From: Favolaschia claudopus
Taxonomy: Eukaryota > Basidiomycota > Agaricomycetes > Agaricales > Mycenaceae
NCBI GenBank assembly: GCA_037176885.1
Contig: JAWWNJ010000009.1
Span: 1 to 64,000, forward strand
Direction: 5' to 3'
DNA length: 64,000 nucleotides
Below the pieces are notes generated by a model. It did not search any database. It saw only the letters and a list, made by a program, of their open reading frames with translations, and had not been told where the DNA came from. Positions within the stretch are counted from its first letter, which is position 1. Each line of letters begins with the position of its first letter. Made by a program: the position numbers and the translations under genes. This document shows positions 12,804-34,446 of the stretch, piece by piece.

Positions 12804-14612
12804 TGAAACGGTGCGTGTAGGTGTAGGCGTGAAATATACCGAAATATAAAAATCACTAAATCTAATCCAATACGACGTGTGTGTGTGTGTGTTCGGGGTG
12901 GCGGGAGCACGTATCGTCCCTCAGAATACTTGTGCAAGCTTCAATCAATCAAGGTCGCTACGTTTGAGCGGGACGAACTACTAGATTGTCTAGCGAGAAC
13001 GTAGCGGGCAAAACGATTTGCAGCGGGAGAAGCGAAGAGTCACTCTTTCTGAGACTTCGAAATGAGAAATTCTGAGTCTAGCGGGGAGGGTCTCCGTGCC
13101 AATAGAAAAGCGTCGCCCGGTAGTGGATCGTCAACCGGGAAGAAGCTTTCTGGATGACAACCGGCGGGCAGAAGGCGCGGCTCAGCGGGACGGGGTTCTT
13201 ATTCAACTGGCGCGGCTCTGGCGAGGAGCGGGGCTCTTACGTCGATGGCGCGGACACTAACAGTGGCCGGGGCACTTACACCACTACGCGGCGGCGAGCT
13301 CGAACGGGGGTCTTTGAATACCGCGGAACGGCAGGGCACACGGGGCGTCGACGGCGCGGAATCAAGCACGAACGGGGGTCTTGGTTATACCGCGGAACTG
13401 CAAGAGACGGGGCTTCGTATTTCAGGAGGGCGCGGGCTCAAAGGCTGGCGGGGCTCTCAAAGTTCTGGCGGCTCGGTATGCCACAAGTCTTTCCGTATCA
13501 CTCGAGTCTCTCTCAGATATCAAGTCTAGTCTCTTTCAAAGCTTCAATTCAAATTCTAGAGTCCGCTACAAACTGCCCTTGTCTACGGGTAGGTAATTGA
13601 CTGAGTAACAAAAAGTACACCGGGAGATTAAATACATGCAGCGGGAGCAGAAACAACCAGATAAAATCATGATGAGAGAGTGTCCAAGTTTGATGCCGCG
13701 CCCGCTGGGAACCAATGGTATATTCAGGATTGCGAGTCGTGAGTGAAAAGACTGCCTCCCGGAGAAAGTCCATGCGGGCGGGTGGGTATTGCGCCTTATT
13801 GCGGTGCAATGGCGTGCTGGTTGCCATGTCCCCGAGAGGAGACACGAAATTCCTCCTTCATAATATGGTCTTGCCGCTGGTCGAGTTGAAGTCGAAAAGG
13901 CTTCCCGCTGAGTAGTTAGTCAACGGCTCGACAGCGGTCAAGTTCGTCCCGTCTCCTATCTTCAGAACAGTTTAAGTCCCAGGGGAAATAGGGAGAGCCG
14001 GGCCGCGTGAGCGGCTCGCCACCCGCCGTTCGGGTTGTCCGCAATCAGCGGGAAATGCCCCCGGCAACTCGCCATGTCCTTCTCATCATGCTGACAGAGC
14101 CGTTGGTTGGGTAGCCGCTGGCTCCGCGGTGCTCCCGCTGGTAGTCGGTTAAGTCCCGGCTGTCTGTGATCGGCCGGCGCGCTCGGCTAGAGTCTGCCGG
14201 TGATGATGTTCGTCGGTAGAGTGGCGGCCGTCCTGAGTTCGAAGTTGAACTCAGATGGTCCCCCGCTAGATCTTCTTCATGTGGGTCGGCGGGTGAGCGC
14301 CTAACCTCAGGGAGGTCGGTAGTTCCTCTTGGTCGCCTCCAGCACCTTGAGATAGTAGTTTCCCACTAAGTCTCTCGGCCTGGCAGTAGAAATAGTCAGC
14401 GGCAGAGTCTCGCACCCGTGTTTAGGGAAACGTCGCTAAGCCGCCGCTACCTGTTAGTGGCCTGCCAGCTTATCGGCTATCCACAGCAATAAGATACTGC
14501 CCGCGAGGTCGGGCATACCTTCTGTTATCCTAGCCTCACTTCTCCCGCTGATAGATCTCGAAAATCGATAAATTTCAGGCATTTCATGCCTAGCCGCTGA
14601 GCGGCCCTATCA
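12804..14612 (-). repeat. Element B 3' LTR
   Basis: 1,809 bp, identical to 31373-33181 except at 13972 (T versus C) and 14299 (G versus A). In element orientation it begins TGATAGGGCC and ends CCGTTTCA. It contains a (GT)8 microsatellite at about 12876-12891 and 13 copies of CAGCGG/CCGCTG. Open frames inside it (for example 13154-13600) have no domain and are not considered genes. Confidence 0.97.
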
Positions 14613-14625
14613 TCTCCCCCTTTCT
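14613..14625 (-). other. Element B polypurine tract
   Basis: Directly next to the inner edge of the 3' LTR, the minus strand reads AGAAAGGGGGAGA. That is the expected place and composition for the primer of plus-strand DNA synthesis in an element of this orientation, and it confirms which LTR is 3'. Confidence 0.85.
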
Positions 14626-15127
14626 AGATTTCAACTCTCCCGAGTTGACGGCTTGGGACCGCCCGCTAGAGATCTTATCCATCTTCCCGGGGAAGGGGAC
14701 TTCAAGACAAAAACTTTGTCTTGGAACAAATTTAGATAACGAACGGGCCGCCAGTGAGGCCCGGTTCCCGCTCGTCCCCTTTGGTATTTCATGAGAGAAA
14801 ACCTTAACGAAGGACTCGTGGCGACCTAATTTTAGATCCCACTCTACCTCCGTTGACAGTTTCTGGACTCAACTTCTCGCCGCGGCCGGCGATGCCGTCA
14901 CTTTCATTATGAGGCGTCATTCCTGCCTTTTTCGGAAGTACATCAAATCAGAGAAGCGCTCGAATCAAACTCTAACCCTGCGCTCTCTAAAGCCGTCCTA
15001 TTCATCCGTAGTTTGGAATGTTTTGGATCAAAGAAGCCGCGGGGACCCCCCGCTTCTTCATTCAAATGTTTTTCTCTGAAATTTTCTCGAGAATCCCATC
15101 AAACATTCAAACTCCGATTCTTCAGGG

Positions 15128-15134
15128 TATAAAG
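15128..15134 (+). promoter_or_regulatory. TATA box candidate for cargo gene 1
   Basis: TATAAAG lies about 160 bp upstream of the first ATG of the gene at 15292, on the same strand. This suggests the antisense genes have their own promoters. Position is the only support. Confidence 0.45.
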
Positions 15135-15291
15135 AGTCGAGAGGTTTCTGGGCGGATTCCCCACCGATTCCCCGATTGGGTACCCCCTTGCCCTCTCTTC
15201 CCTTCGTTTAATCTTTCTGTCTTTCGCCCGCCGACTGGATTTCTGGCGCCTTGCACCGGGAAGCTCTTCTTTTTGATTATTTCGTCCCGCA

Positions 15292-18200
15292 ATGGCTCCC
15301 AAACCCAGCGGCGGCTCCGCCTCCCGTTCTGAATCTCGCTCTTCCCGTCGCGCCCCGGTCGCTTCGTCTCCACCACCGGTTCCTCGAAAACAGCTTTCTG
15401 GTCCTGGGCAGCCGCCTGCCGCATCGTCTTCAAAATCGACCAAACTCCCTCCGCCGCCGCTGGATTCTTCTAGCGTGGACTGGTTCGCCGTATGGCGCGA
15501 CAAGCCGGAGGAGTGGAAGACTCTGCAGGAGCTTCTTGTCCCGTCGAAGCTCGCGGACTACTCTCAGTCTGGAATCGGCAAACTGTTGCGCTCCATCCAG
15601 CAGCCGCTGGTAAGTTCTCATCGGCTGTTTATTCTTTCAGTTATTAATTTCTTTCTAGAGGGAGCATCGGGCGATCTTGGGGGTTGCCCAGAAAGGTCTC
15701 GAGCCTCCCCCGATGGCCCTTGCCATAAGCGTCCATCTTCAAAAGGCCATACAGACGTTCGACCCGGAGGAGCACCTGCCCGATATTCAGGCCCTTCGTT
15801 ACCGCAAGACCGAGCTCAAGCAAAAGAAGGTGCGCCCGGCCAGTAACTTTCTTGGCTTCGCTTCCGCTGATCGTTCATCTAGCTATTCTTGCCCCCGCCC
15901 CCTACTGAGGCTATGGAAGCATTCCCTATACCACCGGTCCCGACCACTCAACTCTTCGTACCGAAGAGGACCAAAGCCGCCTCGGTAAGTTTTGTCAACC
16001 TTTTCACCGGGCGATTCTGACTAGATTTTCCTTTAAGGCCGCGTCTTCGTCTGGCAAAGTTAGCGGCAAAGCCGCGCCCGCCGCCAAAGAGTCTGGCAAA
16101 GTCAGCGGAAAGGCCGCTACGACGCCCGCTGAGTCTGAAAAAGTCAGCGGCAAGGCCGCTGCCAAGGTAAGTCGGGGCAGCCGTCAATCGCTTTTCTTTC
16201 TAATTCTTTCTTGTAGGGGGAGGACACGCCCCGGCCCCAGCCCAAGAAACTCCCAAATTTCACGAAGACGGTGAGTTTCATTTCTAGTTTATCTTGATTC
16301 TTCCCGGCTGACTGTTCGCGTTTAGACCACATCAACTACCGACGATCCCAAGCCCGAGCGGGTCAAGGTAGTCAAAAAGACCATCAAGGTTCCCGCCGAC
16401 ACCCCGACCGCCAGCGGCAGCGGCATCAAACGCAAGGTCTCAACCGGCGCCGAGTCGTCCCCCTCCAAAAAGGCGAAAGAGGACAGGGCGGTCAAGGACA
16501 AAGCGGGCAAGGCCCCGTCTCGTAGTCAGGTAGTCGTCGCCCGCTGCTGCCCTCAATGTAAGGCCGATATAGAATTAACAATAAACTTCTCGTAGTCTGT
16601 CATTAGCGTCCCGAGCTCCAGCGATGAGCGCGTTCCCGTTCCCGACTTCGAAATTCGTAAGTCAGTCCAACGCCGCCTGTTTTCTGCGCTGAAAATCTTT
16701 CTTAGTGATAGAGACCAAGCCGCCCGCCACTCGAAAGAGCAAGAAGGCTAAAGCCGCCACCGTCGACACAGTGCCCTCTCTCAAAGGGCTGGGCACCCGC
16801 GCCGCTCAACTCGCTGCTTTGGAGGGAGTCGGTATCAAACCGGCCAAGCCGGCGAGTTCTTCTTTCTACGGGCGGGGAATTCCCTGGCTAACCTCCCGCG
16901 TTCCCTCCTTAGCTTCCCGAGCAGCCCATCAGGTCGATGGAGCCGATCAAGAAGAAGAGCAAGCCTCGCCCCGATGGGGAGTTCAGGCCGCCGAACAAGG
17001 ACGTCGTGAACAAGTTGTTCACTAATTACCCGCAAGCCGCTCGCCGCCAGGACCTCCCGTACGACCCCGAGAAGGAGCAGTTCGCTTTGGTCGCCAATCA
17101 CCTCATTGGCAACCTCGAGCTGAACGTCGCTCATGTAAGACAGCTTTTTCTTTCCCGATTATTTCTTTCCTCAATCTTTCCCTATCTAGAACGGTCCCCG
17201 CTGCCTGCGGTGCATCGCCTGCGGCAGCAAGTGCGAATCCACCGGCGTCCCCGGCGAGTGCACGGCCTGCGCCAGCCGCAAGTCCACAAAGGACTGTACT
17301 TTCCTTCTCGACGGCGAAAAGATCAGCTCCATGGGCTCCGGGCTGAAGCAATGGGTCTCGATGACCCGGCCCGGTAAGTCAACCACTACTTTCCCGTTTA
17401 GGCCCGCTGACCATTTCAACAGAGTGGTTCGACTTGAACACCGATGTCAACACCGCCGCGGACACCTGTTTCGCCATCCAAGACGCTTTCGAGAAGGCGC
17501 GCTGGAATTTGAACCAGAAGTCCTTCAAGATGCTTCTCTCTGTCTTGGTCACCCGCCGGGAGATCCAGCGGGAGGATTTCATCAAACGCTTCGCCGGCGA
17601 GACCCCCGAGGAGCAGGAGAAGAACATGGACCAGGTCTTGCGCATCGCCATGACCCAGGGGTTGACCGCTTCGTCGACTATCAAGTCGAACCGCCGCTGG
17701 CAATATTACCCTGGCGAGGTCCTCGACGAAGTCCCTATCCCCGGCTTCGAGGACGCCTATGCCTTTTACGAAGCCAAGGACCGCCAGGACCAAAATGTCC
17801 CGCTCGCCTTCTACCTCATCCCGGCCGAGCCTGAACTCGCGATTCCGACACAGTGGGTCGAAGTGCAAGTAAGTCCCATTCTTTCTTTACATTATTCTTC
17901 TGGGCCGCTGACCCTCTTATTCCCATAGCCGGAGGACTGCGTGGACCTCTTCCACGACTTGAAGGGAGAGGACGCCGCTGAAGAGATCCCCGACGGCTCG
18001 AAAGTCCGACAGCGCCTCCTCCTCGACGGTAAGGGTCCAATTAATCTCGACCCAAACGACGAAGACGGCAATGTCTTGCCTTACAGCTGGGAGCACAAGA
18101 GCGTGCCCGGCTTCTTCAAGATGTTGTACCGTAAGGGTACGTTCTTCGAGATCCCCGACGCTCCTCCGCCAGAGCCGAAGCGCAAGGCCAAGTCCAGCGG

Positions 18201-18758
18201 CAAGGTGAAGTCGTCTTCTGTGGTTCACGACGACGCCGACGACGAGTTCAAACCCGACCCGACTTCCCAAGAGGAAGACATGGGCGAGGCCCCGGACGAC
18301 CGTACGTTACCTCTTATTTCTTCTTTCCAATTCATTGCTGAAGTCAACTTCTCCCGCTAGCCATGGATATCTCTCGCCCGCCGACTCCTGAAAAGCGCCC
18401 GAAGGGCAAACAGCGGGCAGTCGAGCCGCCCATCCCTTCGTCTAGCGATGAAGAGGAAGGAGAGTCCGGCGAGGTGGGTGCACCCGCTGTCGAGGACTTC
18501 CTAGCTGAGTCGTTTGCACAGGACGAGTCCAGCGGCGAGGAGGACAGCGAGGCCGAGGTTCGCGGGAGCGTCCAGGGGGAAGTCGATGAGGAAGGCGACA
18601 GCGACCTCGAGGAAGTCGAAATCCCGGGCACCGCCGATTTCGCAGCCAGCGGCGAGGAGGACCTTGGGCCAGAAGTAGATGCAGTGGGCGAGGAAGATGC
18701 AGACGTGCATCTTCCCGATCATCCTGCTCCTTCGGGTGACGACACTGTCGAGAGCTGA
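15292..18758 (+). CDS. Element B cargo gene 1: large nuclear-type protein with Zn2Cys6-like cluster
   Basis: A gene of about twelve exons, antisense to gag-pol. Introns show GTAAGT-like donors, a CTGAC branch sequence and YAG acceptors (for example 15610-15658). The protein has a Ser/Pro/Ala-rich start (MAPKPSGGSA), a short globular part (DWFAVWRDKPEEW), a basic low-complexity part with repeated SGKVSGKAA units (about 16040-16170), a second globular part, and then a six-cysteine cluster at 17202-17296 with spacing C-X2-C-X6-C-X8-C-X2-C-X8-C. It ends with a Lys-rich linker and a long Asp/Glu/Ser-rich tail (18363-18758) that resembles an activation or chromatin-binding tail. Cluster spacing fits Zn2Cys6 DNA-binding domains, but the usual basic residues between Cys2 and Cys3 are few. 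A phase-0 intron lies four residues before the first Cys, as in cargo genes 2-4. DNA binding and nuclear location are inferred. Confidence 0.75.
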
Positions 18759-19557
18759 GCGGGTAAGCACGCTCCCCCTTTCCTGAGTCTCATCCCCCGC
18801 TGACCATCTTTACAGCCTTTCCTCGTGGGTGGGCGGGCGGCAAGTAAGCGACTCGCCCGACCTCCCGCTGCCTTTGACTTCACACTGACTTCATTCCAGA
18901 AATTTTTCTGTATTCATAATCGCGGGGGCCGAGCGGCCCCCAAAATCATCAAAAGCTACGGGCACGGGTCCCATAACCCCGTTTCTTGCGAAGGGTCTGG
19001 CCTGGTGGAATTCCACCCGCCATGACCCACCAAATAAAAATTTTAGATTCAAATCAAGTACCCCGGGTAGAGTAGTATCGTGTACCGGCCAAAGAGCCGA
19101 TGAAGCGCAAAATAAAGAATTTTACGATGCTCTCATTTATGTGTGATCAACTTCTAAGTTCTTTCTAAGTTCCAAAGTCAGAGTCCCCGATTGGAGCCTC
19201 TAAGCGTCTTGTAAGAGTCTGAAGTGAGGAATTCCAACTAAGTGCTGCGCCCGTCGGCTGAGCACGACTTGGAGGGCGAGCTGAACACTCGAACTTTTCG
19301 AGATTTTCAACATGCCGAGCAGCAACGGTGCTTACCACCGGGATCATCAGATAGCGGGGATTGCCCGCGGCATCTCACCCAGCTGTCAGCGGCTGTCCTC
19401 GGATTCCATTGGGCGACTAGTTCCTCATTTCTCCCGCTGGTCTCGTAAGAGTGATAACGTAGAGTAGAACCGGCCCGGCGGATCGAGTTACCCGCTACCG
19501 TACTTGTATTCGATAGGGGTAGATAGCCAATCAAACCATCTTTTTCTTTCAACTACC
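18759..19557 (+). other. Spacer between cargo genes 1 and 2
   Basis: About 800 bp inside element B with no convincing frame. It presumably holds the 3' end of cargo gene 1 (a GTAAGC...CTGAC...ACAG stretch at 18763-18815 looks like a 3'-UTR intron) and the promoter of cargo gene 2. No clear TATA box is seen. Confidence 0.5.
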
Positions 19558-20300
19558 ATGCCTCAGCCCATGGGTGAAGTCTTAATCGACTATCATTCCT
19601 TCCCGGTGGCCAGTCAGGACTTCGTGCGCAAGATCTATACTGTGGTAGGCTGTCCTCAACACATTTCTGCGTCAAGTCCAACCAGCCGCTAGCCGAATCT
19701 CGTCTGCACGCCTTGTAGCGACGCCGGCGAAGACTGTGAATTTCTTCACTGGGGCTCGAAGTGCACTCGGTGCCGGGAGGCGAAGGTCCCCAAGTGTCTG
19801 TTCACCGGGGTGGATTGGTTCAAGTTTACCTATCCATCTTCGACCTTTCCGACACTTTTCATCTATCGCAGCGGTAAGTCTAGCCGCTCTTCAAATTCTC
19901 ATCTTTCTTATGCTACTCAGGCGGCACTTTATACGACCTTGCATTCCTCGAACTCTGGTACCACCTACGCCTTGGCGGCTTAAGCCCCGATATGTTCATA
20001 GGCTCGGTGGACGGTGAGCCCGCTGACTTTTTACTTCGGCGGGAGGAATTTGCCGGCGACCTTCGTGACTGGGACATTGCTCACGACCTGTCTCACGCCG
20101 CTCACTCCAGCCAGCGGCTGTATTTCTACAACATCCTGTCTCGAGTTTTACGCGAGTGGCGCGCTCAGGACCGTTCGATCCATGCCCAATGCGATGTCGA
20201 CGCAGCTATCTCTCTTCATGATGTCAGGCGGCGGGACGCTCATGTTCCGACCTTCGTGCCCTTGACCCAAGGCACGCGCCGCCAGACCTTCGAGCGATAA
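19558..20300 (+). CDS. Element B cargo gene 2: small Zn2Cys6-like cluster protein
   Basis: Three exons. Exon 1 starts MPQPMGEVLIDYHSF and ends after KIYTV; the intron (GTAGGC ... CCGCTAG) is in phase 0, and exon 2 opens P-N-L-V before the first Cys. The cluster at 19704-19797 reads C-X2-C-X6-C-X8-C-X2-C-X7-C with a Trp-Gly pair (HWGSKC) shared with cargo genes 3 and 4. A second intron follows (GTAAGT ... TACTCAG), then a helical C-terminal domain (GGTLYDLAFLELWYHLRLGG ...) ending at 20300. Total length is about 210 residues. No database family is recognised beyond the cysteine spacing. The shared intron position, cluster and layout show it is a paralogue of cargo genes 1, 3 and 4. A role as DNA-binding regulator of the element is a hypothesis. 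Confidence 0.7.
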
Positions 20301-20472
20301 TCCAGGCTAGTAGCTTTTCCCCGTTAGGGTCAAATAAATCTCTTTGCCCGGTTGCAAGCCGTTATCGTGATGTCTGATTCCACCTGAGCTTTTGGTCCGG
20401 CAGCCGGCGGTACTCACCCGTCGGCTATAGATTTTACTTATAGCGGCCGGTGCCCAGTGAGTCCTTCGAGCG

Positions 20473-21143
20473 ATGCCCGCCTTTTCTTTGGCAGCGACCT
20501 TTTACTCAGAACGCTTTAGGAGCTTTACCGGTCCCTCAGAGTACCAGCTCGTACTTCAAGCTCAATTCGTGGGTCTTTCGTTCTTTCTCAGTGCTCTCCC
20601 GCTGACGGGTGCCCCTTCTTAGCCGGAGTACGAATGCCAGTGCTGCCTCAAGAACTACCGCCATTGCATCTGGATTCAGTGGGGTGAAGCCTGCCTCAGC
20701 TGCATGTTCATAGGTCGCGCCGCCTTGTGCTGCTACACTAAGAAGTCCGTCTGGCAGGCCGAGAACAGCCGTCGTCGCGACACTCTTCTAGCCTCTCAGC
20801 CAGGCAAGTCTGCTTTCTCTCTTTCTACCTCTCGGCGGGGGCTTACTGGATTTTAGCTCCCTTCGCCGGGCGGATCGCTCAGTTTGACTGGTACGCCAGG
20901 GCTGCCGCTGCCCGATTCGACGAGAAGTTGTACATTGATGTGCGTACTTGCACCATCCTCGCCGCCAGGTCCATGCTCGGCACCCTTGGGTTTGGCCAGC
21001 TACGCTTCTTGTATCGGCTGTGGTTTGACGCGAAGGGGGCGGGCATGCGAAAGGAAATTGTAGATCTCCTCCGGGATAGGTTAGACGCTGTAGCTCTCCA
21101 GTCCGGCGCAAGGCTCCCGCCCGTTATGTTCATCGGGCCGTAA
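20473..21143 (+). CDS. Element B cargo gene 3: small Zn2Cys6-like cluster protein
   Basis: Three exons. Exon 1 begins MPAFSLAATFYSERF and ends ...LQAQF; a phase-0 intron (GTGGGT donor, CCGCTGAC branch region, TTCTTAG acceptor) precedes P-E-Y-E and the first Cys. The cluster at 20634-20730 has C-X2-C-X6-C-X8-C-X2-C-X8-C with the shared Trp-Gly before Cys4. After a second intron comes an alpha-helical domain starting PFAGRIAQFDWYARAAAARF with many Ala/Arg/Leu, ending PPVMFIGP. About 180 residues. It sits head-to-tail 172 bp after cargo gene 2 and about 285 bp before cargo gene 4. The C-terminal domain aligns loosely with that of cargo gene 4 (hydrophobic helix, then R-E/D-R-L-D motif near the end). 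Confidence 0.7.
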
Positions 21144-21383
21144 GCGTAGTAGGAAATATATTCCCACTGTCAAACGAACTTGCATCTTTAAAACTCTGTT
21201 TCAAGCTGCCCGATTAGGAAGGCTTCTTAGAAACCAAAGCTTCCTCGTGTTTTTCGCTCAGCGGGAGCTCAGCACCTCGTTGGATATTCCACATGTATTG
21301 CGGATCTTCCGGGAGCGTCGGGTGCAATGAGTCCCACTGTCGATCTCTTATGTTTTTGGGTCTCCCGCCAGGTCTCAGAGGGG

Positions 21384-21390
21384 TATTTAA
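21384..21390 (+). promoter_or_regulatory. TATA box candidate for cargo gene 4
   Basis: TATTTAA lies 39 bp before the ATG at 21429, a usual TATA distance for a short fungal 5' leader. Supported only by sequence and position. Confidence 0.45.
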
Positions 21391-21428
21391 GCTGGCGGGA
21401 AGGTCCCATTTGCTTCAGTCGTCTACGC

Positions 21429-22057
21429 ATGTCTTTGTTGGAAAATCCGCTCTTTCCGAATGACCCCGTCGGCCCGCTCAGGGAGTACTATGTACGTTCC
21501 TGAACATTTTGCCTCGGGTAATTCCTCATCATTCGGCAGCCTGGCCGGGTATGTTCTGCGTGCCTCAACGCCCGTTCTCATTGCGAGTTTACTGAGTGGG
21601 GAGCACCGTGTACCCGCTGTTTCTTGCTGAAGCACAACTGCTCGTATACTCAGACCGCTGAGCTGGCCGATGAAATAGCTGCCCGCCGGCACCGTTTCAA
21701 AGAGGGTCCCGATCGTAAGTGACGACTTCTTTCTTATCTGTTGCGCCACAACTGATCCCCCGGTCGCTTCTAGCGGCTACGAAGGAACAGCTTGCTGCTT
21801 GGGACGTCGTTCACGAGGGGACCCTGGCGCAGTTCCCATTCTGGCAACAATACCATGCTGTAATCGTTGGTCGAAACGTCGCAGAGGCAACCCAACGGCT
21901 GTCTTTTTACTTCGAGGCCCGCCAGGTTTTCCATCTTCTGCAAGAGGCCAAAACGGCTAATCTCCCGGCTGCGTATGTTGCTGTTATCCGCGAGCGGTTA
22001 GACGTTCTCGCCAATAATCTTTTCCTGGATCTTCCGGCTAGGATGCGGGCAGTGTAG
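21429..22057 (+). CDS. Element B cargo gene 4: small Zn2Cys6-like cluster protein
   Basis: Three exons. Exon 1 is MSLLENPLFPNDPVGPLREY plus one Tyr; a phase-0 intron (GTACGT ... TTCGGCAG) precedes P-G-R-V and the first Cys. The cluster at 21552-21641 reads C-X2-C-X6-C-X8-C-X2-C-X6-C with EWGAPC matching the Trp-Gly pair of cargo genes 2 and 3. A second intron (GTAAGT ... CTTCTAG) leads to a helical C-terminal domain (ATKEQLAAWDVVHEGTLAQF ...) that shares the R-E-R-L-D-x-L pattern with cargo gene 3. The spacing is the closest of the four to a textbook Zn2Cys6 cluster. Function is inferred as DNA or RNA binding in the service of the element. Confidence 0.72.
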
Positions 22058-22408
22058 ATACAGGCACATGTACTTTCGGATAGTTCGTTCTGATAACACA
22101 CGCTCCCGCCCCATGTGAGGCCTTGGAAACATTTATTTCTTGGTAAAGATGTGCCCGCTGCCCTCAAATGACGTGCTAGGTGACCCACCTCTCCCCCTTT
22201 CAGAAATCTCAACTGTCCTCAGTTGATCGATCAGAGGAAATTCAGGTCCCCCGGCAGCAAATTTTCGTGCCACGGAACGATCGGGCGCGTTTGAAATAAT
22301 TTTCTGCGCCACCGGCGGGTGCATCTACCATAAATGGTAATCCAAGTTCGGCCGTTGTCCAAATTTCGTCCCAATTATCCTTACGGCGTTATATTACGGC
22401 CGCTCGAG

Positions 22409-22414
22409 TATAAG
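22409..22414 (+). promoter_or_regulatory. TATA box candidate for cargo gene 5
   Basis: TATAAG about 66 bp before the ATG at 22480, followed by a pyrimidine-rich stretch directly before the start codon, as in many fungal promoters. Confidence 0.45.
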
Positions 22415-22479
22415 AAGCAGCGGGCGAACGGGTATACTCCCCAGCCTCGTCTACTGTCTTTACTCTGCTTCCTTCAAAA

Positions 22480-23727: not shown

Positions 23728-23949
23728 CTCGTTCCCAAGGAGCTTCCCCAGCGGGTCCCCCCTTCTTCAGCATACTCGGTACTGGCTCAATCGTTTCGGA
23801 CACCTCACGGCTCATCCTTCTGCTGGCCGCCACACGCTCCCCGGGTGCGCAACTTAGTCGCTGCTCACTGGCGGGAGATGCAGACAATCCAATTACTTAA
23901 AGACTTCGAATCCCGTTTCAAATTGTAACGTAGATATCTTAGCAGTAAT

Positions 23950-26900
23950 TCATTTCCGCGCGGCGGCTTTTGTGGCAGAACGAGTCTTTCGTTTGAAAGG
24001 CAGCGGCTCATCCGTGCCAGGCTCCTCTTCCTCTTCTTCTTCCTCGGGCAAGGCCTCCTCCAGAGTTGGCTCTTCGTCAGCCGTCCCGCTGGGGGTTAAC
24101 CTCACATTCCCGAATTGGAAGTCGTCTCCAGAATAACCGTCTTCCTCCTGGACCATCTTTTCCAGCGTCTCGGCCGAGAGGTCGATTAAGTCGTGAATGT
24201 CAGCGGGCAGCTTAATTGAGCGCCGCTGCTCGAAGGGGACGACCCTGAACTGAGCAATCTTCGATTGAAAGACAGAGCCGTCCATCTCCGCTACGATATA
24301 ACTTCCACCTTTCGTACGACGGATGATAATTACTGGTCCCAGGTATCTGGCGGCCATCTTCGTATTCAGCGACTTCTCGACGGTCGTATTCCTGATGAGC
24401 ACCAAGTCTCCCGGCTCGAAATGGTAATCTTCGATAGTGTGTTTATGCGCTATCTCATACCGGTGTAAATTCGCTCGTTTCTCGTCGGTGACCCGCTCCC
24501 TCATCTGTTCGACGTGAGTGGCGTGCTTAGCCAAGGCCTGGGCTCGATAACCGATTAATTCAGCGGTCGTCAGAGTCCTGCCGGGCAGATGCACTAGCCA
24601 AGTCGCCTCTTCTATATCCAGCGGGAGGATCGGATGTGCGCCCGTTACCATAAAGTAGGGTGAACAACCTGTTCCTCGTCGAATAGTGACCCGGTCAGCC
24701 CACAACATCTGCGGGAAGAACCAGTACCACTTGCTGGGATTCCCGCCAGTAGCTTTCCATAAGGATTGCCTCATCGAGAAGTGCCCATTTTCGATTTTCC
24801 CGTTGGCTTGAGAATTGTACGGCGAAACTCTAATATTCCTTATGCCATACTTAGACTCAAGGTAGGCCACAGCCGCTAGGAAGGCCGGTGCATTATCTGT
24901 CACCAATTCCTCCGGGCAGCCCCACCTACAAATCACATCTTCAAGTAAGAACAAGGCCAATGTTCTGGCATTCTCATTCTTTATCGGCCGCGCTTCTATA
25001 TAGCTGCTGAGGGAGCAGCGGGCGTCAACAATTTTGTTGAAGCCGTTGGAAGGGGTTCCAACGACCATCACGTCGACGTGCACCACCTGGAAGAGCGAAG
25101 GGGTATGGGTGACAACGGGCGGGATCTTTAATAAAGTCCTTTGCCTCAACTGACACAATTCGCAAGTTTTAATATACCAGGTGACGTCCCGCTCCATCTC
25201 AGGCCACCAGAAACGCATTTCTATCAAGGATTTGGTAGCAAAGACACCGCGGTGGGCCAGGCTATCATGAGCCGCCCGCATCATATACATTCGGTGATCT
25301 TTGTCTACCACCAACTGATGTGCACTCCCCGTTGAGGATTTATGATAGAGTTTTCCATCTGCGTCCTCGAAGAAGCCGGTGGCGAATCGCAAGAAGGCTT
25401 TGTATTCCTTGTCGTTCATGCCAGCCGGGCGAGCCAGGGTATTCCGCCGCCAGTCCTTCATGAGGAGCAGCCGCTCGTCCGCTAGCTTCGCTGCTACCGA
25501 TCGTTGGTCTTCAGAATACGGTTCCCGCTTCGTCGGGTCGTATTTCAATTCGAGGTCAGGGATCAGCGGCTCGCCGTCTGGCTTGTCGCCACCCTTTGAC
25601 TGAGAGAAGACTTCGAAAACATGTTCTCTACCAAGGCGGGTGTAAGCCCAAGCCTGCTCGGCGTCGTTTCCGAAGTCAGCGGCTGACCGAGCCTCGTCTC
25701 CCGCCAATTCCGCTACCATATATCCACCTCGGGTGTCAATATCGTGCTTGAAATCCTCGAAGTTCTTGAGAGGCGGCCAAGCACTACTTTCAGGATGAAG
25801 ACCCGGCGGCTCGTTATTATCGAACTCGTCTTCTGGATGATCATACTCTGGATCCCCCGGCTGAATACGCCGGCGGGAGAGTCCATCTGGCCCGAAAGTC
25901 TTGCCCGGTACATGCTTCAGAGTGAAATGAAACATCAGGATCTCCTCAATCCAGCGGTTGATCGTAGCGTTGGGCCCCATTCCCGGGTGATCCAACATGC
26001 CCTTGAGGTACTGAGCGTCGGTTTCGACGACCAGCTTGCGGCAGCCCAACAGCCAATATTGCATGTGGTCTAGCGCCCTCTTCAAGCCAAACAATTCCCG
26101 CTTGGGCTGAGAATACCTCGACTCCCGGTCATTCAAAGGTATGGAGCTGAAGCGGGCATAGTACCGCTTATTTAGGTCCAAAGGATCCCGCTGGTACACA
26201 TGCACCCCAACTCCAAGGTACGACGTATCAACCGCCAGCACCACTTCAGTGTCCCATTCATATCTTATAGGTCTAAGCGCGGGACATTCTCGCAAAGCCT
26301 TCTTCAAAACTTTCATGCATGCGTCTTGGGCCGGGCCCCACTCGAATATGACTTCCTTCCGGGTGAGCTTCTGGATCGGCTCAGCCTTGACTGTATAGTC
26401 TTGGATGAACATTCTCATAACGCCCACAGTTCCCAGGAAAGCTTTCACATCGTGGAAATCCTTCAGCGGGCCCCAACGCTCAATGACGCCAATTCTATCT
26501 TCATCCGGGCGCATGCCCTCGTATGAGCAGACATGGCCGACCACCTTAAAAGTTCCCCGGCAAATCTGCAACTTCTTCCCGCTTACAGTCGCCCCAGAAT
26601 AGGCTAGCCGGGTAAGTACCCGGTTGCAGTCTACCAAGTGTAACCACACAAAGACCCTTATCAGCGGGTTCTCAGGGATGGTCTCGTACGTCCCGTCAGG
26701 CTTTTCGTATCGAGTGAAGCCGCCGGCGACAGGCACGTCATCTATATACGGCCGGGTAACCGCAGGAATTTCATCTCGCAGGATGTAAGTTACGTCTTCG
26801 TGGAAGATCGGCACCGAGTTGGTCCAACCCTGCGGCAATCTTACCAATCGAAGCGCACCAAACGGAGTTTGGAAGGTTGTGTAATCTCGAGATTCCGGGT

Positions 26901-28061
26901 CAATCAGCCGGTGGTTGTACCCAGAGTAAAGATCAAACGTGGACCCACAAGCCCTTCCTGCGAAATGTTCGGCCAGATCCGCGGCGCCGGGAGGCACCCC
27001 AGAGTGTGCAATGGTTACCGCGTTCAGCGGCTCCAGCGAATGCACTAACCGAATTGACTTCTTATCACTCTTCAGAACCCCAAAGTACTTGGTGCGATAC
27101 GAGCCATTAGATGGTTCATATATATTGGCATCGATACTCGCCCTAAGCACCTTGCAGACTTCCTCCAGCTGCCCCGGCGGGATGGGAATATTTCTCTCCA
27201 CCCAAACCTTATGGTCTGGCTTCACCGGGAACTTTACTGGCGGGAAGAAATCCGTTCTGAAAGTTCCTCTTTCGCTGTCATCCCATGCTACCGTATTTTC
27301 GTGTATAGATAACATATGATGAACCAGCTTCATCTCTTCATCATTCAAGAATCCATCGTCATGCAGTTCGTCCACCACCGCCTTCCTCTCCGCAGTGTAT
27401 CTTCCGACGGGAACGAATTCTGGCGGGTGAGGGTCTAGCGGGACGAGGTTCTGCAATGGATCCCCGATGATATTCCTTTCTATCCTGAACTCGGGAGGGA
27501 GCGGCTCGAGGACCGGCTTTACTTTTAGCGCTACCGGTTTATACTTCTTCGAGAACACCTCCTTCACCTCGACTTCGGGCGGGTGATCCTCGGGAATGAT
27601 TTCCTCCATCAAAGCGACTTTCGTCTCATTGTGTTCAAACCCGGGTACTACCCAATCGGCGTAGTCACAGCACTGACAGCGCTCCCCCGCTGAATGACGA
27701 GATTGCTCTTGCCTAACCGACTCAATATCGATGCCGGCAGTCATAAACACAGCGGCCGGGTCCTTCAGTTTTTCTCTGACTTTGTCCGTTATGTTGGCTA
27801 CGATAGCCACATAGGATTCGCCGACTTCCTTTCCTTCTGTCAGCTGCTCGTTGTATTCTTGGAATAACTGAGCAGCGGGTTCATCATCAATTTCTGGCAT
27901 GGCAGCCGCCAGGTAGGCCATTTTCGTCTCGGCCATCGAAAATCCCTCTTCTCCAGACTTCATCAAAGCGCAAATTCTAGGAACATTATTCTCGTCCAGT
28001 TCTATCTGAACCGCTAATTCTCCTTGATGGTTAATCAACTCCTCGAATTCTGAAAATTTTG
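23950..28061 (-). CDS. pol: Element B pol: reverse transcriptase, RNase H, integrase
   Basis: A frame of over 1,360 residues, uninterrupted. Order: N-terminal linker; reverse transcriptase with LVHSLEPLN, FDLYSGYNH and the catalytic YIDD (about 26739-26750); RNase H-type domain starting VLAVDTSYLGVGVHVY; integrase HHCC zinc domain (HDSLAHRGV ... CELC, about 25150-25280); and the integrase core with D (VVHVDVM), D (VTDNAPAF) and E (NGKIEN), the DDE triad. The C terminus is acidic then basic (KRKTRSATKAAARK). No chromodomain is recognised. It overlaps the protease frame and is in -1 phase to it. The first in-frame start-like codon (TTG at 28038) is not needed, because a canonical slippery heptamer A-AAT-TTT lies at 28053-28059 before the protease stop, so expression as a fusion is likely. 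It copies element RNA into DNA in virus-like particles and integrates it. Confidence 0.95.
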
Positions 28062-29201
28062 CTCCTCCTGGCTGCTCGGCTGCTCAGCCGGTGATGCGTC
28101 GTTCTGGACGCGCCGCACCTGTCGCCGCTGGCCTCTGGGGAAGGTAGGGACGACCACCCGCTTCTGCGTGGAGGGGTCGGTCAAAGTCAGGAACTGGTTC
28201 CCGTCAGAGGTATTTTTGATACCGCTGGCGGTCAGGATTTCGAAGGGTCGCCCCAACAGCACCTTGTAGGCCGGGTTTCGTATGACATGCACTTGAAGGT
28301 ACACCGTCATGTCACCGAACCTGAAGGGGACGTTCCTGGCCAGACCGACTGACTTCTCGGTTTGCCCGTTGGCGCTCATCATGTGGATGCAGTTATCTGG
28401 GTCCCAGCTGACTCCTAGTTCGGTGGCTACCGACAGGGCCATGGACACGATCTGCGATCCACCGTCCAGAATACATTCAACTTCAGCGGCGCCGTGAATG
28501 AGCGGGAAGACTACCCTCAGGGCCGCTGATTCTCCGGCAGAAGCGTTGTCGGAGATGGCGACGAAGACATCCCTTACCGGCTCTCCCTCCACTATCGACT
28601 GCCAATATTGGACTACTGGGTCGACGGTGATCAGGGCTCCCGCTGGCATAAGTCCGTCGGCCGCTGTCGCGACCTGAACTATTACTTCGTAAGGTAGGTC
28701 CTCTACGGTTACGCTGGAGGACTCGTCGTCTTCGTCGGCCTCTCTCTCTGCGTGGCTAATCAACTGTTCTAGGGTTACTCGAACAGCGGGCGAGACTCTC
28801 TTCTTCGAGAGCAACGCCTTAGCCTGGCGCAGCAACTTCGGGCTGAGGGCGAACAGTCTCCCCAGCGGGAGAGCTATTTCCAGGTTTCCGAAGATCTCCT
28901 TTATCAAGGATTCGACCTCCTCATCGTCCTGGTCCTCTATGGGCGCCTTCAACTCGTAGTTCTTCTCGTTGGCCACTAACGGCGGATCTCCCGCCGGCCG
29001 AACTCTAGGTTCGTTGGGCCTTTTGGCTGGCTTGACCGGAGGAACGTTCCTATACGGAAGCTCCGGCGGCTGAGCGCCATTTTGTTCTTCTGTCTCCTCC
29101 CGCCCTTTCTCCTTGGTTTCAACGATCGCCGGCTGTGCTTCGACAGCGGGCTTTCGCAGCGTCCTCGGCTTGTAGGGCAACTTCGGCATCACAACTTCCA
29201 T
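28035..29201 (-). CDS. Element B protease (gypsy-type aspartic protease)
   Basis: 388 residues from the first ATG, but the frame is open through the gag stop (residues such as GAKGKPSADKPPENRQV precede the ATG), so it is probably made as a gag-pro fusion by a -1 shift. The N-terminal third is Pro/Lys-rich. The retropepsin-like domain has CILDGGSQIVSM (catalytic Asp near 28470) and the typical fungal gypsy blocks NVPFRFGDMTVYLQVHV and YKVLLGRPFEILT. It would cut the polyprotein during particle maturation. Sequence is intact, unlike the protease of element A. Confidence 0.88.
   Translation of the reverse strand: MEVVMPKLPYKPRTLRKPAVEAQPAIVETKEKGREETEEQNGAQPPELPYRNVPPVKPAKRPNEPRVRPAGDPPLVANEKNYELKAPIEDQDDEEVESLIKEIFGNLEIALPLGRLFALSPKLLRQAKALLSKKRVSPAVRVTLEQLISHAEREADEDDESSSVTVEDLPYEVIVQVATAADGLMPAGALITVDPVVQYWQSIVEGEPVRDVFVAISDNASAGESAALRVVFPLIHGAAEVECILDGGSQIVSMALSVATELGVSWDPDNCIHMMSANGQTEKSVGLARNVPFRFGDMTVYLQVHVIRNPAYKVLLGRPFEILTASGIKNTSDGNQFLTLTDPSTQKRVVVPTFPRGQRRQVRRVQNDASPAEQPSSQEEQNFQNSRS
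28053..28059 (-). promoter_or_regulatory. Slippery site for -1 frameshift, protease to pol
   Basis: In the protease frame the codons read CAA AAT TTT CAG, giving the heptamer A-AAT-TTT of the X-XXY-YYZ type. It lies about 20 nt before the protease stop, and the pol frame (-1) is open across it. I did not establish a downstream pseudoknot. Confidence 0.6.
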
Positions 29202-29287
29202 TTTCTTTCCTACGGGCGGGCGTACTTGTCTGTTCTCCGGGGGCTTATCCGCACTGGGTTTCCCCTTTGCCCCCTTCCTCGAACTCT

Positions 29288-31210
29288 CTAAAAATGCTCT
29301 CCTTCGGCGCTGTTCCCCGTTCGGGAGGGACCAGCCCCGTTGGGAGAGCGAGAGTTCGCTGAGACAGCCGCCAGTAGAATCGCAACAGCGTTGGCGTCGA
29401 ATTGCGGCGGGGGAGGTTGGCTTTGATGAGCCACAAGGGGTGGTTGAACACCCCCTGAACCATGCGACTGGAGTTGCGTCACTTGCCGCTGGAGGTTTAC
29501 TTGCTCAGCTCGCAAGGAAACCAATTCTTCTTCTCTCGGGTCATAGTAGAATTCCTCGTTCTGGCTGAACGCGGCTTGCGCGGCTTCCAGCTCCTGCTCG
29601 TCCATGTCAAGAACGGAGAGCTGAGCGAAGACAGACTGGTAGTTTTGCGCAGCGGCCGTTGGTTGTGCGGCCGGGCGGTACTCCTCTACCTGCTGCTTCT
29701 TGGACTTGTGCCCGTCCTTCGGGATAGGTATCCCATCGGGAAAACAGTCTCTGAATCCTACGACCTTCATCTTTCCACTCCCTATGTGGGCTTGCCGGAT
29801 GAGACACTTATCTCTAAAGTGCCCAAACTTGTCGCAATAAAGACACCCCTGATCCGCCAGGTTCCCTTTGAATTGCACGGTAGGCATTCGCGGGTAAGAC
29901 TGGGAGTCAGCGGCGCCTGGGACTCTGCCCGGTAGGGACTTATAGAAGGACTCTAACTCAGCCATCTTCTTCTTGGTCGCGGCGTCGATCTCTTTTAATT
30001 GGGAGGTCTGATTATCCAGCCGCTCCATCATAGTGACGACTGACACCTTAATCGTCTCAAGAAGGGCCTTGTTAGGGTCCTCTTCTTCTTTCTTAATCGC
30101 AACGTTCGGATTCGGGAGAATCGACCGCCCGCTCGACGCTCGTCCAGAGCCGCTGGCGCTCTTTGACTTGCTCGAGTAACCTCGATCAGAAGTGCCAAAG
30201 AACTCCGAGTTGGCGGTCGAACGTTTCGCGATCTTTTTGGCCTCACTCATGACTTCGGCCAGCGTCCATGAGCGGGCGTCTGGCTCGTCGTCGTCCTCAG
30301 CGGGAGGTTTCCTCTCGAGATTCTCCAGGATTCGCTCTTTAAACTCGCGAGTCAATTTGGAGAAGAACATCGGGAGGGCTTCCCGGTGCGAAATCAAGTT
30401 TGAATCGAGGAGTTTGTTCGCCTCGACGTTCATGGTTCGCGTGAGGCGCATGAGCTCGTCCTCATCATCCCGGTCAATCCCCTCTTCGGCGAACTTACGA
30501 AGCTGCTTGTGCAATTTCTGCACAGAGCCCTTCTTCTGGTCGACGACTGACGGGTAATTTTCCAAGATTTCTTTCTTAAAGTCGTCGAACGTCTTGGAGA
30601 ACGAGTCGAACTGCCGCCACTCCTCAGCCGTAGCTTGAGCGGTGTAGCGGCAGACGAACTCGTTCTTCTTGTCGGCCAGCGTCTCATCTAATTCCATCAT
30701 ACGCTCCACATGGTCCAGGAAACGAACGAGTTCCTCCGGCTCATCTTCTTTGAAGAGCGGGGCGTTCCTGTCCCATGGTTCCGGCGCGCGCTTCTTTCCT
30801 CGGGCGACAGTATTATTGCCGTCTTCAGCCATTGGATTGTTTGAAGGGGTTGGTGAAGTTTGGAGTAGTGGTGAAGAGACAGACGAGAGAGTCGTTGACG
30901 ACTGGGTAGCTGCACCGTCGGGCGTAACAGGTCTAGTGCCGGGCGGTTGAGTCGGGGTCTGTTGTTCCAGCGGAGCAGAGGGGCTCAACGACTGGGTTCG
31001 GCGGGCACGATAAGCTTGTGCTTGGGATCGTCCGCGCAGAGAATAGATTTCCCGGGCGAGAGCAACAGGCGGGAGGGAAGAATCGGCAAGTTCGAGATCG
31101 AGAGCGGCAGCAGCGGCGCGTAGGCTAGTGTTGGTAGATCGAGGTTTTGGTGGTGGTACTCTAGCGGATCGTCCTTCTGAAGCCACGTCTCCTCCGAAAC
31201 TAAATGGCAA
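29288..31210 (-). CDS. gag: Element B Gag
   Basis: 640 residues. The N-terminal part is Pro/Ser/Thr-rich and disordered. The middle (about residues 140-330) is the helical retrotransposon Gag/capsid-like region (EPWDRNAPLFKEDEPEELVR, then a Trp-Arg-x-Phe block). It is followed by a coiled-coil segment (TMMERLDNQTSQLKEID), one CCHC zinc knuckle CLYCDKFGHFRDKC near 29805-29845, and a Gln/Pro-rich C terminus. Gag forms the particle and packages RNA. It starts about 160 bp inside the 5' LTR boundary. The stop TAG is preceded by a run of five T; the protease frame is -1 and open here, so a P-site slip at TTT could connect them. Confidence 0.92.
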   Translation of the reverse strand: MPFSFGGDVASEGRSARVPPPKPRSTNTSLRAAAAALDLELADSSLPPVALAREIYSLRGRSQAQAYRARRTQSLSPSAPLEQQTPTQPPGTRPVTPDGAATQSSTTLSSVSSPLLQTSPTPSNNPMAEDGNNTVARGKKRAPEPWDRNAPLFKEDEPEELVRFLDHVERMMELDETLADKKNEFVCRYTAQATAEEWRQFDSFSKTFDDFKKEILENYPSVVDQKKGSVQKLHKQLRKFAEEGIDRDDEDELMRLTRTMNVEANKLLDSNLISHREALPMFFSKLTREFKERILENLERKPPAEDDDEPDARSWTLAEVMSEAKKIAKRSTANSEFFGTSDRGYSSKSKSASGSGRASSGRSILPNPNVAIKKEEEDPNKALLETIKVSVVTMMERLDNQTSQLKEIDAATKKKMAELESFYKSLPGRVPGAADSQSYPRMPTVQFKGNLADQGCLYCDKFGHFRDKCLIRQAHIGSGKMKVVGFRDCFPDGIPIPKDGHKSKKQQVEEYRPAAQPTAAAQNYQSVFAQLSVLDMDEQELEAAQAAFSQNEEFYYDPREEELVSLRAEQVNLQRQVTQLQSHGSGGVQPPLVAHQSQPPPPQFDANAVAILLAAVSANSRSPNGAGPSRTGNSAEGEHF

Positions 31211-31352
31211 AATCTTCTATCGCGGGCCTGGAGCTAAAGGCTCAACGGGCGGGTGTATATTCTATTCTCGAGTCAACCGGCGGATGGTTCGTGCTAGTTT
31301 ATAGCAGCGTCCACAAGTGATTTCTTTCGACTTGACACAAATAATCTGTCAC

Positions 31353-31370
31353 CCCTCGCGGTGGGCTCCA
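31353..31370 (-). other. Element B primer-binding site
   Basis: Two bases after the end of the 5' LTR in element orientation, the sequence reads TGGAGCCCACCGCGAGGG. It starts with TGG, as expected for pairing with a tRNA 3' CCA end. I could not match it to a particular tRNA from memory. Confidence 0.7.
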
Positions 31371-31372
31371 GA

Positions 31373-33181
31373 TGAAACGGTGCGTGTAGGTGTAGGCGTG
31401 AAATATACCGAAATATAAAAATCACTAAATCTAATCCAATACGACGTGTGTGTGTGTGTGTTCGGGGTGGCGGGAGCACGTATCGTCCCTCAGAATACTT
31501 GTGCAAGCTTCAATCAATCAAGGTCGCTACGTTTGAGCGGGACGAACTACTAGATTGTCTAGCGAGAACGTAGCGGGCAAAACGATTTGCAGCGGGAGAA
31601 GCGAAGAGTCACTCTTTCTGAGACTTCGAAATGAGAAATTCTGAGTCTAGCGGGGAGGGTCTCCGTGCCAATAGAAAAGCGTCGCCCGGTAGTGGATCGT
31701 CAACCGGGAAGAAGCTTTCTGGATGACAACCGGCGGGCAGAAGGCGCGGCTCAGCGGGACGGGGTTCTTATTCAACTGGCGCGGCTCTGGCGAGGAGCGG
31801 GGCTCTTACGTCGATGGCGCGGACACTAACAGTGGCCGGGGCACTTACACCACTACGCGGCGGCGAGCTCGAACGGGGGTCTTTGAATACCGCGGAACGG
31901 CAGGGCACACGGGGCGTCGACGGCGCGGAATCAAGCACGAACGGGGGTCTTGGTTATACCGCGGAACTGCAAGAGACGGGGCTTCGTATTTCAGGAGGGC
32001 GCGGGCTCAAAGGCTGGCGGGGCTCTCAAAGTTCTGGCGGCTCGGTATGCCACAAGTCTTTCCGTATCACTCGAGTCTCTCTCAGATATCAAGTCTAGTC
32101 TCTTTCAAAGCTTCAATTCAAATTCTAGAGTCCGCTACAAACTGCCCTTGTCTACGGGTAGGTAATTGACTGAGTAACAAAAAGTACACCGGGAGATTAA
32201 ATACATGCAGCGGGAGCAGAAACAACCAGATAAAATCATGATGAGAGAGTGTCCAAGTTTGATGCCGCGCCCGCTGGGAACCAATGGTATATTCAGGATT
32301 GCGAGTCGTGAGTGAAAAGACTGCCTCCCGGAGAAAGTCCATGCGGGCGGGTGGGTATTGCGCCTTATTGCGGTGCAATGGCGTGCTGGTTGCCATGTCC
32401 CCGAGAGGAGACACGAAATTCCTCCTTCATAATATGGTCTTGCCGCTGGTCGAGTTGAAGTCGAAAAGGCTTCCCGCTGAGTAGTTAGTCAACGGCTCGA
32501 CAGCGGTCAAGTTCGTCCCGTCTCCTATCTTCAGAACAGTCTAAGTCCCAGGGGAAATAGGGAGAGCCGGGCCGCGTGAGCGGCTCGCCACCCGCCGTTC
32601 GGGTTGTCCGCAATCAGCGGGAAATGCCCCCGGCAACTCGCCATGTCCTTCTCATCATGCTGACAGAGCCGTTGGTTGGGTAGCCGCTGGCTCCGCGGTG
32701 CTCCCGCTGGTAGTCGGTTAAGTCCCGGCTGTCTGTGATCGGCCGGCGCGCTCGGCTAGAGTCTGCCGGTGATGATGTTCGTCGGTAGAGTGGCGGCCGT
32801 CCTGAGTTCGAAGTTGAACTCAGATGGTCCCCCGCTAGATCTTCTTCATGTGGGTCGGCGGGTGAGCACCTAACCTCAGGGAGGTCGGTAGTTCCTCTTG
32901 GTCGCCTCCAGCACCTTGAGATAGTAGTTTCCCACTAAGTCTCTCGGCCTGGCAGTAGAAATAGTCAGCGGCAGAGTCTCGCACCCGTGTTTAGGGAAAC
33001 GTCGCTAAGCCGCCGCTACCTGTTAGTGGCCTGCCAGCTTATCGGCTATCCACAGCAATAAGATACTGCCCGCGAGGTCGGGCATACCTTCTGTTATCCT
33101 AGCCTCACTTCTCCCGCTGATAGATCTCGAAAATCGATAAATTTCAGGCATTTCATGCCTAGCCGCTGAGCGGCCCTATCA
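31373..33181 (-). repeat. Element B 5' LTR
   Basis: 1,809 bp, two differences from the other LTR. In element orientation it must hold the promoter for the gag-pro-pol RNA; I did not find a convincing TATA box and transcription start. It is followed by the PBS and precedes gag by about 160 bp. Its outer edge cuts the element A gag frame. Confidence 0.97.
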
Positions 33182-33185
33182 TCGG
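33182..33185. repeat. Target-site duplication of element B, right copy
   Basis: TCGG directly after the CA end of the right LTR, matching 12800-12803. Collapsing the two copies restores the element A gag frame through a His-Ala-Asp-Asp-Gly-Gly junction. Confidence 0.85.
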
Positions 33186-34407: not shown

Positions 34408-34446
34408 TTTCAGTTCAAGTGCTATTGTATTAAAAGAGTAATACAT

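Follow-up and report, generated by a model that had tools for sequence, protein, structure and literature searches.

The subject of this report is a 20.4-kb long terminal repeat (LTR) retrotransposon of the basidiomycete Favolaschia claudopus and the block of spliced genes that it carries in antisense orientation. The element lies within the first 64,000 nucleotides of contig JAWWNJ010000009.1 (assembly GCA_037176885.1), a stretch referred to as the window throughout. The antisense genes, g1 to g5, were modelled by hand from splice signals, and these gene models are predictions from DNA alone. The features of the element are as follows:

12804-33181, minus strand: whole element, Ty3/gypsy-type LTR retrotransposon, 20.4 kb
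12804-14612, minus strand: 3' LTR, 1,809 bp, with the target site duplication (TSD) TCGG at 12800-12803
14613-14623, minus strand: polypurine tract adjoining the 3' LTR, read from the sequence
15292-18758, plus strand: g1, 13 exons, 935 amino acids (aa); predicted zinc cluster in exon 10 (17190-17373), motif at 17202-17297; class A of an exchangeable cassette
19558-20300, plus strand: g2, 3 exons (19558-19644, 19693-19873, 19921-20300), 215 aa; predicted zinc cluster at 19705-19797
20473-21143, plus strand: g3, 3 exons (20473-20550, 20623-20803, 20857-21143), 181 aa; predicted zinc cluster at 20635-20730; donor of intron 2 is GC
21429-22057, plus strand: g4, 3 exons (21429-21491, 21540-21714, 21774-22057), 173 aa; predicted zinc cluster at 21552-21641; Pfam Zn_clus match at E 0.062, under the cut-off
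22480-23727, plus strand: g5, 6 exons, 310 aa; neither a zinc cluster nor a Pfam match
23950-28083, minus strand: pol frame (reverse transcriptase, RNase H, integrase H2C2); PF00078 (slightly under the cut-off), PF17917, PF17919, PF17921
28035-29504, minus strand: aspartic protease frame; PF13650 at 1.8e-05, PF13975 at 2.3e-05
29288-31216, minus strand: gag frame, 642 aa open, named from its position and a CX2CX4HX4C knuckle seen by eye; no Pfam match
31373-33181, minus strand: 5' LTR, 1,809 bp, with TSD TCGG at 33182-33185
12804-33181, both strands: dispersed word CAGCGG/CCGCTG (85 in 12804-31372) and the 8-mer CAGCGGGA (26 in the whole element), from word counts

By its LTRs, target duplication and domain order, the element is of Ty3/gypsy type. 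The paired LTRs end in TG..CA and are bordered by the 4-bp duplication, and gag, protease, reverse transcriptase, RNase H (pol residues 612-716) and integrase (zinc domain at residues 926-982) follow in that order. The region after the 5' LTR starts TC-TGGAGCCC, at the position of a primer-binding site. The initial annotation, which described a single gypsy element with gag, protease and pol on the minus strand, is thus borne out by the frames, the LTRs and the TSD. It had also held that the whole had moved recently as one unit. A recent insertion of the whole agrees with the TCGG duplication and with two differing sites (13972 and 14299, left-copy positions) over the 1,809 bp of the LTR pair, but the antisense block has not always travelled as a unit, because g1 has apparently been exchanged between very different versions. 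A check for transposon ends inside the element returned no dispersed repeat in the window besides the LTR pair at E<=1e-5. Short tandem arrays number two only, one of them present in both LTRs. With no second dispersed repeat, a separate transposon nested in the element was rejected.

Five spliced gene models sit on the plus strand between pol and the 3' LTR, in line with the spliced antisense genes proposed there earlier. When these models served as training data for a small gene finder, it reproduced g1 until the last exon, where it spliced on beyond the stop. To place the block in its family, we drew on the genome assembly (264.6 Mb in 460 contigs); each own-genome search scored at most its best 40 places, and copy counts are lower bounds. 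All 40 scored places (the window included; the best 40 of 367 first-look candidates) match the full 3-kb junction between pol and the antisense block end to end, which answers the earlier question of whether copies without these genes, or with other junctions, occur among them. The equivalent of 14300-24200 was then taken from 20 of the other 39 places, with the window as reference. The g2-g5 block stands at the same place in 20 of 20 of these copies, with an identity to the window of 95.5-99.1% for g3-g4, 95.6-99.3% for g5 and 86.2-98.9% for the stretch bearing g2.

Judged from substitution patterns, the five spliced antisense genes are kept by purifying selection. Across the 20 copies, the donor/acceptor pairs of the 11 introns of g2-g5 are GT-AG or GC-AG in 220 of 220 cases, and reading frames are intact in 18 (g2), 20 (g3), 20 (g4) and 17 (g5) copies. 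The ratio of nonsynonymous to synonymous substitution rates (dN/dS) against the window is 0.09-0.30 for g2, 0.07-0.30 for g3, 0-0.21 for g4 and 0-0.16 for g5, L009 excepted. This near-identical copy is not independent of the window, because one of its flanks is common with the window site, and its values (g2 0.90, g5 0.96, g3 0.15, g4 0.05, g1 0.15) come from few changes. For g1, nine copies of the window's class gave dN/dS 0.13-0.16 with 108 of 108 splice pairs GT/GC-AG, and frames are intact in six of the nine, a shorter one in L016 among them. Over 19 copies, exons diverge from the window by 2.8%, introns by 5.7% and intergenic DNA by 5.9%. Since dN/dS is far under 1, exons contrast with introns and splice sites are retained, translation is indicated. 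The constraint is, on these estimates, about equal to that on pol, where positions 23953-27500, compared in 7 copies, show dN/dS 0.06-0.12 in the 6 that differ (with one stop in L007). Ten open reading frames on the sense strand of the block were also checked: four, each of which overlies antisense exons, stay open in 21 of 21 sequences, and the other six in 3-14 of 21.

Two introns of the window, at 20804-20856 (g3) and 16852-16912 (g1), are GC-AG introns with GT at the donor in some copies; in the aligned copies, donors alternate between GC and GT within the family.

The block contains a small gene family. Over all six frames of the window, the spacing CX2CX6CX5-12CX2CX6-8C has four matches, one each in g1 to g4, and it is absent from 40 base-shuffled windows. 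With the window counted, g2, g3 and g4 each retain it in 21 of 21 sequences, and class-A g1 in 10 of 10. When the five proteins were searched against one another, g3 matched g4 over nearly its full length (1.5e-12) and g2 matched g4 in two stretches (2.9e-09); the pairs g2/g3 (0.0002) and g1/g4 (0.0055, cluster surroundings only) were weaker. In all of g1-g4 the cluster lies on an exon of 175-184 nt between a phase-0 and a phase-1 intron, and because these phases are the same in all four, we take the genes to have multiplied together with their introns. Thus, by sequence comparison, g2-g4 are related to one another, and g1, on the basis of exon frame and cluster, has the same cluster exon. We call the four products Zn2Cys6-like, since Zn_clus stays under its cut-off and matches to PDB profiles are weak; zinc and DNA binding are predicted. 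No relatives of g3 appeared at E<=1 among 903 candidates from 5.8 billion proteins. One annotated F. claudopus protein at NCBI does match a g1 of the genome (class C, see below), with 94.6-98.4% over three exons, and the two gaps skipped in it coincide with the introns flanking the cluster exon. The AlphaFold model of this fragment (P0121) has a predicted local distance difference test (pLDDT) score of 38.9, too low for the model to be of value.

The g1 region differs strongly between copies. In 11 of the 20 fetched copies it cannot be aligned as DNA to the window, and a g1 relative is present nonetheless. Beside class A of the window we distinguish class B in two copies (L010, L020) and class C in nine (L012, L014, L015, L017, L021-L024, L026), the latter with subclasses C1 and C2, of which L024 is a mosaic. 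Over the exon after the cluster, identical residues number 71 of 147 between A and B, 49 of 142 between A and C and 48 of 142 between B and C (34-48% amino-acid identity). Similarity between the window and class B ends at 15190-15273 and returns at 18800-18818, barely outside the g1 coding sequence; with class C it ends at 14733-14792 and returns at 19081-19225. Individual places were assigned a class by searching the genome with probes for A, B and C and cross-matching the hits by position. The 40 junction places comprise 13 of class A, 4 of B, 15 of C and 8 unassigned, and the 40 best gag places 11, 6, 9 and 14. For the 40 best g3-g4 places, the upstream class is A in 13, B in 10 and C in 13, with none found in 4, one of which (on contig C162) is the fetched class-A copy L013.

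Association with g1 class differs along the element. Identity within classes exceeds that between classes by 27 points in the leader, 14 in the LTR end and 3.2 in the post-g1/g2 stretch (0 of 2000 label shuffles each), with the proviso that such shuffles overstate certainty because the copies are related by descent. The same difference is -0.11 for g3-g4, -0.05 for g5 and 0.01 for the final 240 bp of pol (1127, 1072 and 870 of 2000 shuffles). In these comparisons, g3-g5 and the pol end show no association with g1 class, whereas the leader and, for class C, the LTR end do. Such a null beside a strong association within 2 kb is the pattern expected of recombination. In class-A copy L013, synonymous divergence (dS) is 0.54 in g1 vs 0.03-0.10 in g2-g5. 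Classes A and B have a common LTR type, and that of class C is distinct, with a mean identity, over 312 bp only, of 78.7% with A and 78.0% with B. On this sequence evidence, g1 is a cassette at a fixed place that exists in at least three very divergent, exchangeable classes.

The third finding concerns the DNA of the element itself, in which a CGG-containing word is strongly enriched from end to end. CAGCGG/CCGCTG is its commonest hexamer, with 85 occurrences in 18.6 kb and a strand balance of 44/41, where Markov models of order 1, 2 and 3 predict 12.7, 14.4 and 39.4; no sequence in 60 simulations per order rose above 47. Each 1-kb bin of 12804-33803 holds at least 2, and the two bins directly to the left hold 0. 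The flanks have 24 vs 21.4 expected, with 4 in the densest 2 kb, and the retroelement frame that surrounds the insertion has 1 in 3.6 kb. Of the 8-mer CAGCGGGA, 27 copies lie in the window (2.9 expected), 26 of them inside the element, and the LTR has 7 against 0.11 expected. Per kb, CAGCGG reaches 7.2 in the LTR, 7.1 in the protease frame, 6.4 in g1, 3.5-4.1 in gag and pol and 0.3-0.65 in the flanks. Synonymous shuffles (500 each) gave means far below the observed counts in pol (17 observed, mean 4.85), protease (10, 2.05), gag (6, 1.64) and g1 (18, 4.99), and 0 of 500 reached the count in any of these. Composition or codon usage was therefore rejected as the cause, since Markov models of order 1 to 3 and the synonymous shuffles of these four frames all fall short.

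Related words are also favoured in cassettes of classes B and C that do not align as DNA to class A. By excess, AGCGGG is the top-ranked hexamer in L020, L012 and L017 and the second in L022, and CAGCGG is second in L020, fourth in L017, seventh in L022 and not among the first eight in L012; class-C cassettes also favour TGGCGGG. Pairs of motifs showed no preferred spacing within 40 bp. Classical Zn2Cys6 proteins read CGG triplets, and CAGCGG contains one.

Taken together, we propose that the antisense block is an integral regulatory module of this Ty3/gypsy-type family, whose DNA-binding products would act on the dispersed CGG word through VANC-like anti-silencing or trans-activation, and we give this proposal an about even chance of being correct. 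The antisense genes would be transcribed from the 3'-LTR side and then spliced and translated. The products of g1-g4 would enter the nucleus, where one or more of them would bind CAGCGG(G/C) on element DNA and so keep the chromatin or the LTR promoters of the element active. Introns would survive retrotransposition because the reverse-transcribed RNA holds the genes in reverse complement; here we agree with the initial annotation, which had reasoned likewise. Finally, g1 would be swapped as a cassette, in class C together with the adjoining 3' LTR, and since it is this 3' LTR, next to g1, that supplies the U3 of the following copy, regulator and promoter could travel together. Among the possible functions, an anti-silencing or trans-activating role seems to fit best. 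A narrower version, which we put forward tentatively and consider possible rather than probable, is self-recognition coupled to anti-silencing: the antisense, intron-bearing zinc-cluster family would read a 6-8-bp word in coding and noncoding DNA to counter host silencing, with g1 as the specificity cassette, its anciently diverged classes recombining with the neighbouring U3, and the whole having evolved independently of VANC.

Several observations weigh against this proposal. Concerning the proteins, Zn_clus remains under its curated cut-off (g4 13.9 vs 21 bits; best E 0.0042, on short segments), and the 16 PDB profile matches are weak and mixed: nine chains are fungal regulators by name (LEU3, HAP1/CYP1, Pho7, LAC9, C27B12.11c), and the best two are not. 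Classical Zn2Cys6 DNA binders carry a basic run between Cys2 and Cys3, which by eye is missing from this loop, in g2 most of all. Concerning the word, its excess shrinks under the order-3 Markov model; synonymous shuffles show none in g3, g4 and g5 (0.30, 0.29, 0.66) and only 0.036 in g2, and the codon-controlled excess is weak in six g1 models of classes B and C (0.037, 0.277, 0.327, 0.017, 0.037, 0.017). Conservation of noncoding CAGCGG rests on 8 sites, less variable than random blocks at P 0.014 (P 0.077 for the 6 intergenic ones alone). Concerning the cassette, class and LTR are only partly matched because A and B have the same LTR type. Among the gag places, the 30 with 99% or more identity to the window comprise 10 of class A, 8 of C, 0 of B and 12 unassigned, and since all 6 class-B assignments are confined to the group with 92-93% identity, gag appears partly linked to g1 class. 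Lastly, there is no strong methylation trace, because CpG is not depleted (observed/expected 1.05) and transitions at CpG show no more than a mild excess (41 of 790 sites vs 57 of 1985 other C/G); this pattern neither supports nor excludes silencing by methylation.

The strongest competitor takes the antisense proteins for conventional regulators that activate or repress the LTR promoter in trans, comparable to Tat or HBZ, the word outside the LTR having some other cause. The density of CAGCGGGA in the LTR speaks for it, as does the position of g1, which adjoins the 3' LTR and whose class is tracked (via class C) by the LTR end. There is also a precedent, as far as the accessible parts of the sources go, in HBZ of HTLV-1, an antisense nuclear protein, and in the antisense promoter of the HTLV 3' LTR. 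A regulator of the promoter alone fits less well, since it would have no need of a word that also occurs in gag and pol and that reaches, in the protease frame and in g1, about the density seen in the LTR. We consider this explanation doubtful, if a serious one. That the g1 classes are incompatibility types, by which a copy restrains or excludes others of its class, seems to us unlikely. Deeply diverged alternatives at one place with recombining neighbours do resemble idiomorphs under balancing selection, but class-A g1 evolves under purifying selection and gives no sign of rapid change.

Very unlikely, in our opinion, is a captured cargo of host genes serving the host, even though introns and a multi-gene block resemble host genes. 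A host-serving gene would not need upkeep in so many copies, and this origin was rejected given that all 40 scored places have the same junction and that g2-g5 recur in every fetched copy at the same place; L009, with its mixed dN/dS and few changes, is uninformative on this point. Of the word "cargo" in the initial annotation, what stands is that the genes are present, spliced and antisense; that they are captured passengers does not agree with a block found in 20 of 20 copies, under selection, with g2-g4 related and g1 having the same cluster exon. Neither the zinc clusters nor the CAGCGG word figured in that annotation. Hardly credible is the idea that the frames are incidental and the antisense RNA itself (as double-stranded RNA) is the function: a regulatory role of antisense transcripts is discussed for other retroelements (PMC7264820, in the part available), but the low dN/dS, the exon/intron contrast and the retained splice sites indicate translation.

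Parts of this arrangement have parallels elsewhere. In a fungus, Zhao et al. in 2011 reportedly described an antisense gene, brtn, in the Boty/BcGypsy1 element of Botrytis cinerea, which, as far as the available account goes, is likewise a fungal gypsy element and carries an extra gene in antisense, though one gene vs the five here. The plant gypsy elements Retand, RIRE2 and Grande have antisense open reading frames (TRP28, gene23) at the corresponding place (PMC7264820, in part). The antisense region of Retand measures 2.9-6.6 kb and, unlike that of the Favolaschia element, is not connected with introns, a zinc-cluster family or exchangeable classes in the accessible portion of that source; at E up to 10, the Pfam scan of g1-g5 gave no match to TRP28 (PF04195). 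Gypsy elements with single antisense genes, one of them fungal (brtn), are already known. The likeness to HBZ, as described in the accessible text, lies in an antisense nuclear regulator that starts near the 3' LTR; HBZ is one gene of an animal retrovirus, whereas the Favolaschia element has five genes and is fungal.

VANDALs are DNA transposons, and the carrier here is an LTR retrotransposon. In the Arabidopsis VANDAL21/VANC system, the element genes bear introns, a short word has accumulated in the element and motif density matters for the localisation of VANC21; VANC removes silent marks, and related VANC proteins have different targets (PMC5735166, PMC10398659, each in part). Intron-bearing element genes and an accumulated short word are found here too. 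According to the available parts of the same papers, VANDAL motifs lie in noncoding tandem repeats, whereas the Favolaschia word is scattered, coding sequence included, and its binding is a prediction. With fungal Zn2Cys6 transcription factors the element proteins have in common the spacing CX2CX6CX8CX2CX6-8C and the CGG word (the CGG preference of these factors being general background), but g1-g4 fall under the Pfam cut-off and their basic loop is weak. Judged from literature listings, which covered few subscription journals, neither a spliced, multi-gene, duplicated, class-switching antisense block in a fungal LTR element nor a self-word has been described.

The evidence of selection implies that antisense encoding enables a retrotransposon to keep a block of several spliced genes. 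This would remove the usual bar on introns in retroelements and allow gene duplication with introns included. In addition, the CAGCGG word and the exchangeable zinc-cluster gene make self-recognition of LTR retrotransposons by their own regulators directly testable.

Some observations on the insertion and its surroundings remain. When the flanks are joined minus one TCGG, one open frame of 1,212 aa crosses the insertion site, and the insertion is clean in that this frame is uninterrupted. Its two pieces (10483-12803 and 33186-34500) show, by eye, a zinc-knuckle-like motif and collagen-like repeats, and neither has a Pfam match; because of this knuckle and these repeats, the target was probably another retroelement, within its gag-protease gene. 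Target duplications of 4 bp with a central CG occur at four sites whose ends match (TCGG, ACGC, CCGG, ACGA), and a fifth, ACGG, can be deduced from two recombined copies. Beside the window, the copies on contigs C2, C10 and C55 have such 4-bp duplications, and the ends are mismatched on C16 and C36. These NCGN duplications suggest an integrase preference for NCGN.

The two recombined copies deserve a brief description. The one at C16:12618-33011 has the right flank of the window (60 of 60 bases) and a foreign left flank ending in ACGG, and the one at C36:312016-332405 has the left flank of the window (60 of 60; 100% as rounded over 1 kb) and a right flank starting with ACGG. Two insertions thus seem to have exchanged parts reciprocally, perhaps across haplotypes. 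L021 carries an extra insertion of ~1.8 kb in the second g3 intron, and L014 one of ~3.8 kb, from coordinates, between the junction stretch and gag. At 7451-8227, the window holds a KDZ-transposase-like fragment with a CxC cysteine cluster, every Pfam match of which is under the cut-off. Relatives of pol include a Mycena chlorophos protein (53%) among the 120 matches listed. The g1 of the element also lies at identical coordinates, 17387-18958, on contigs C19, C66, C121 and C420, which have a block, perhaps a subtelomeric one, in common.

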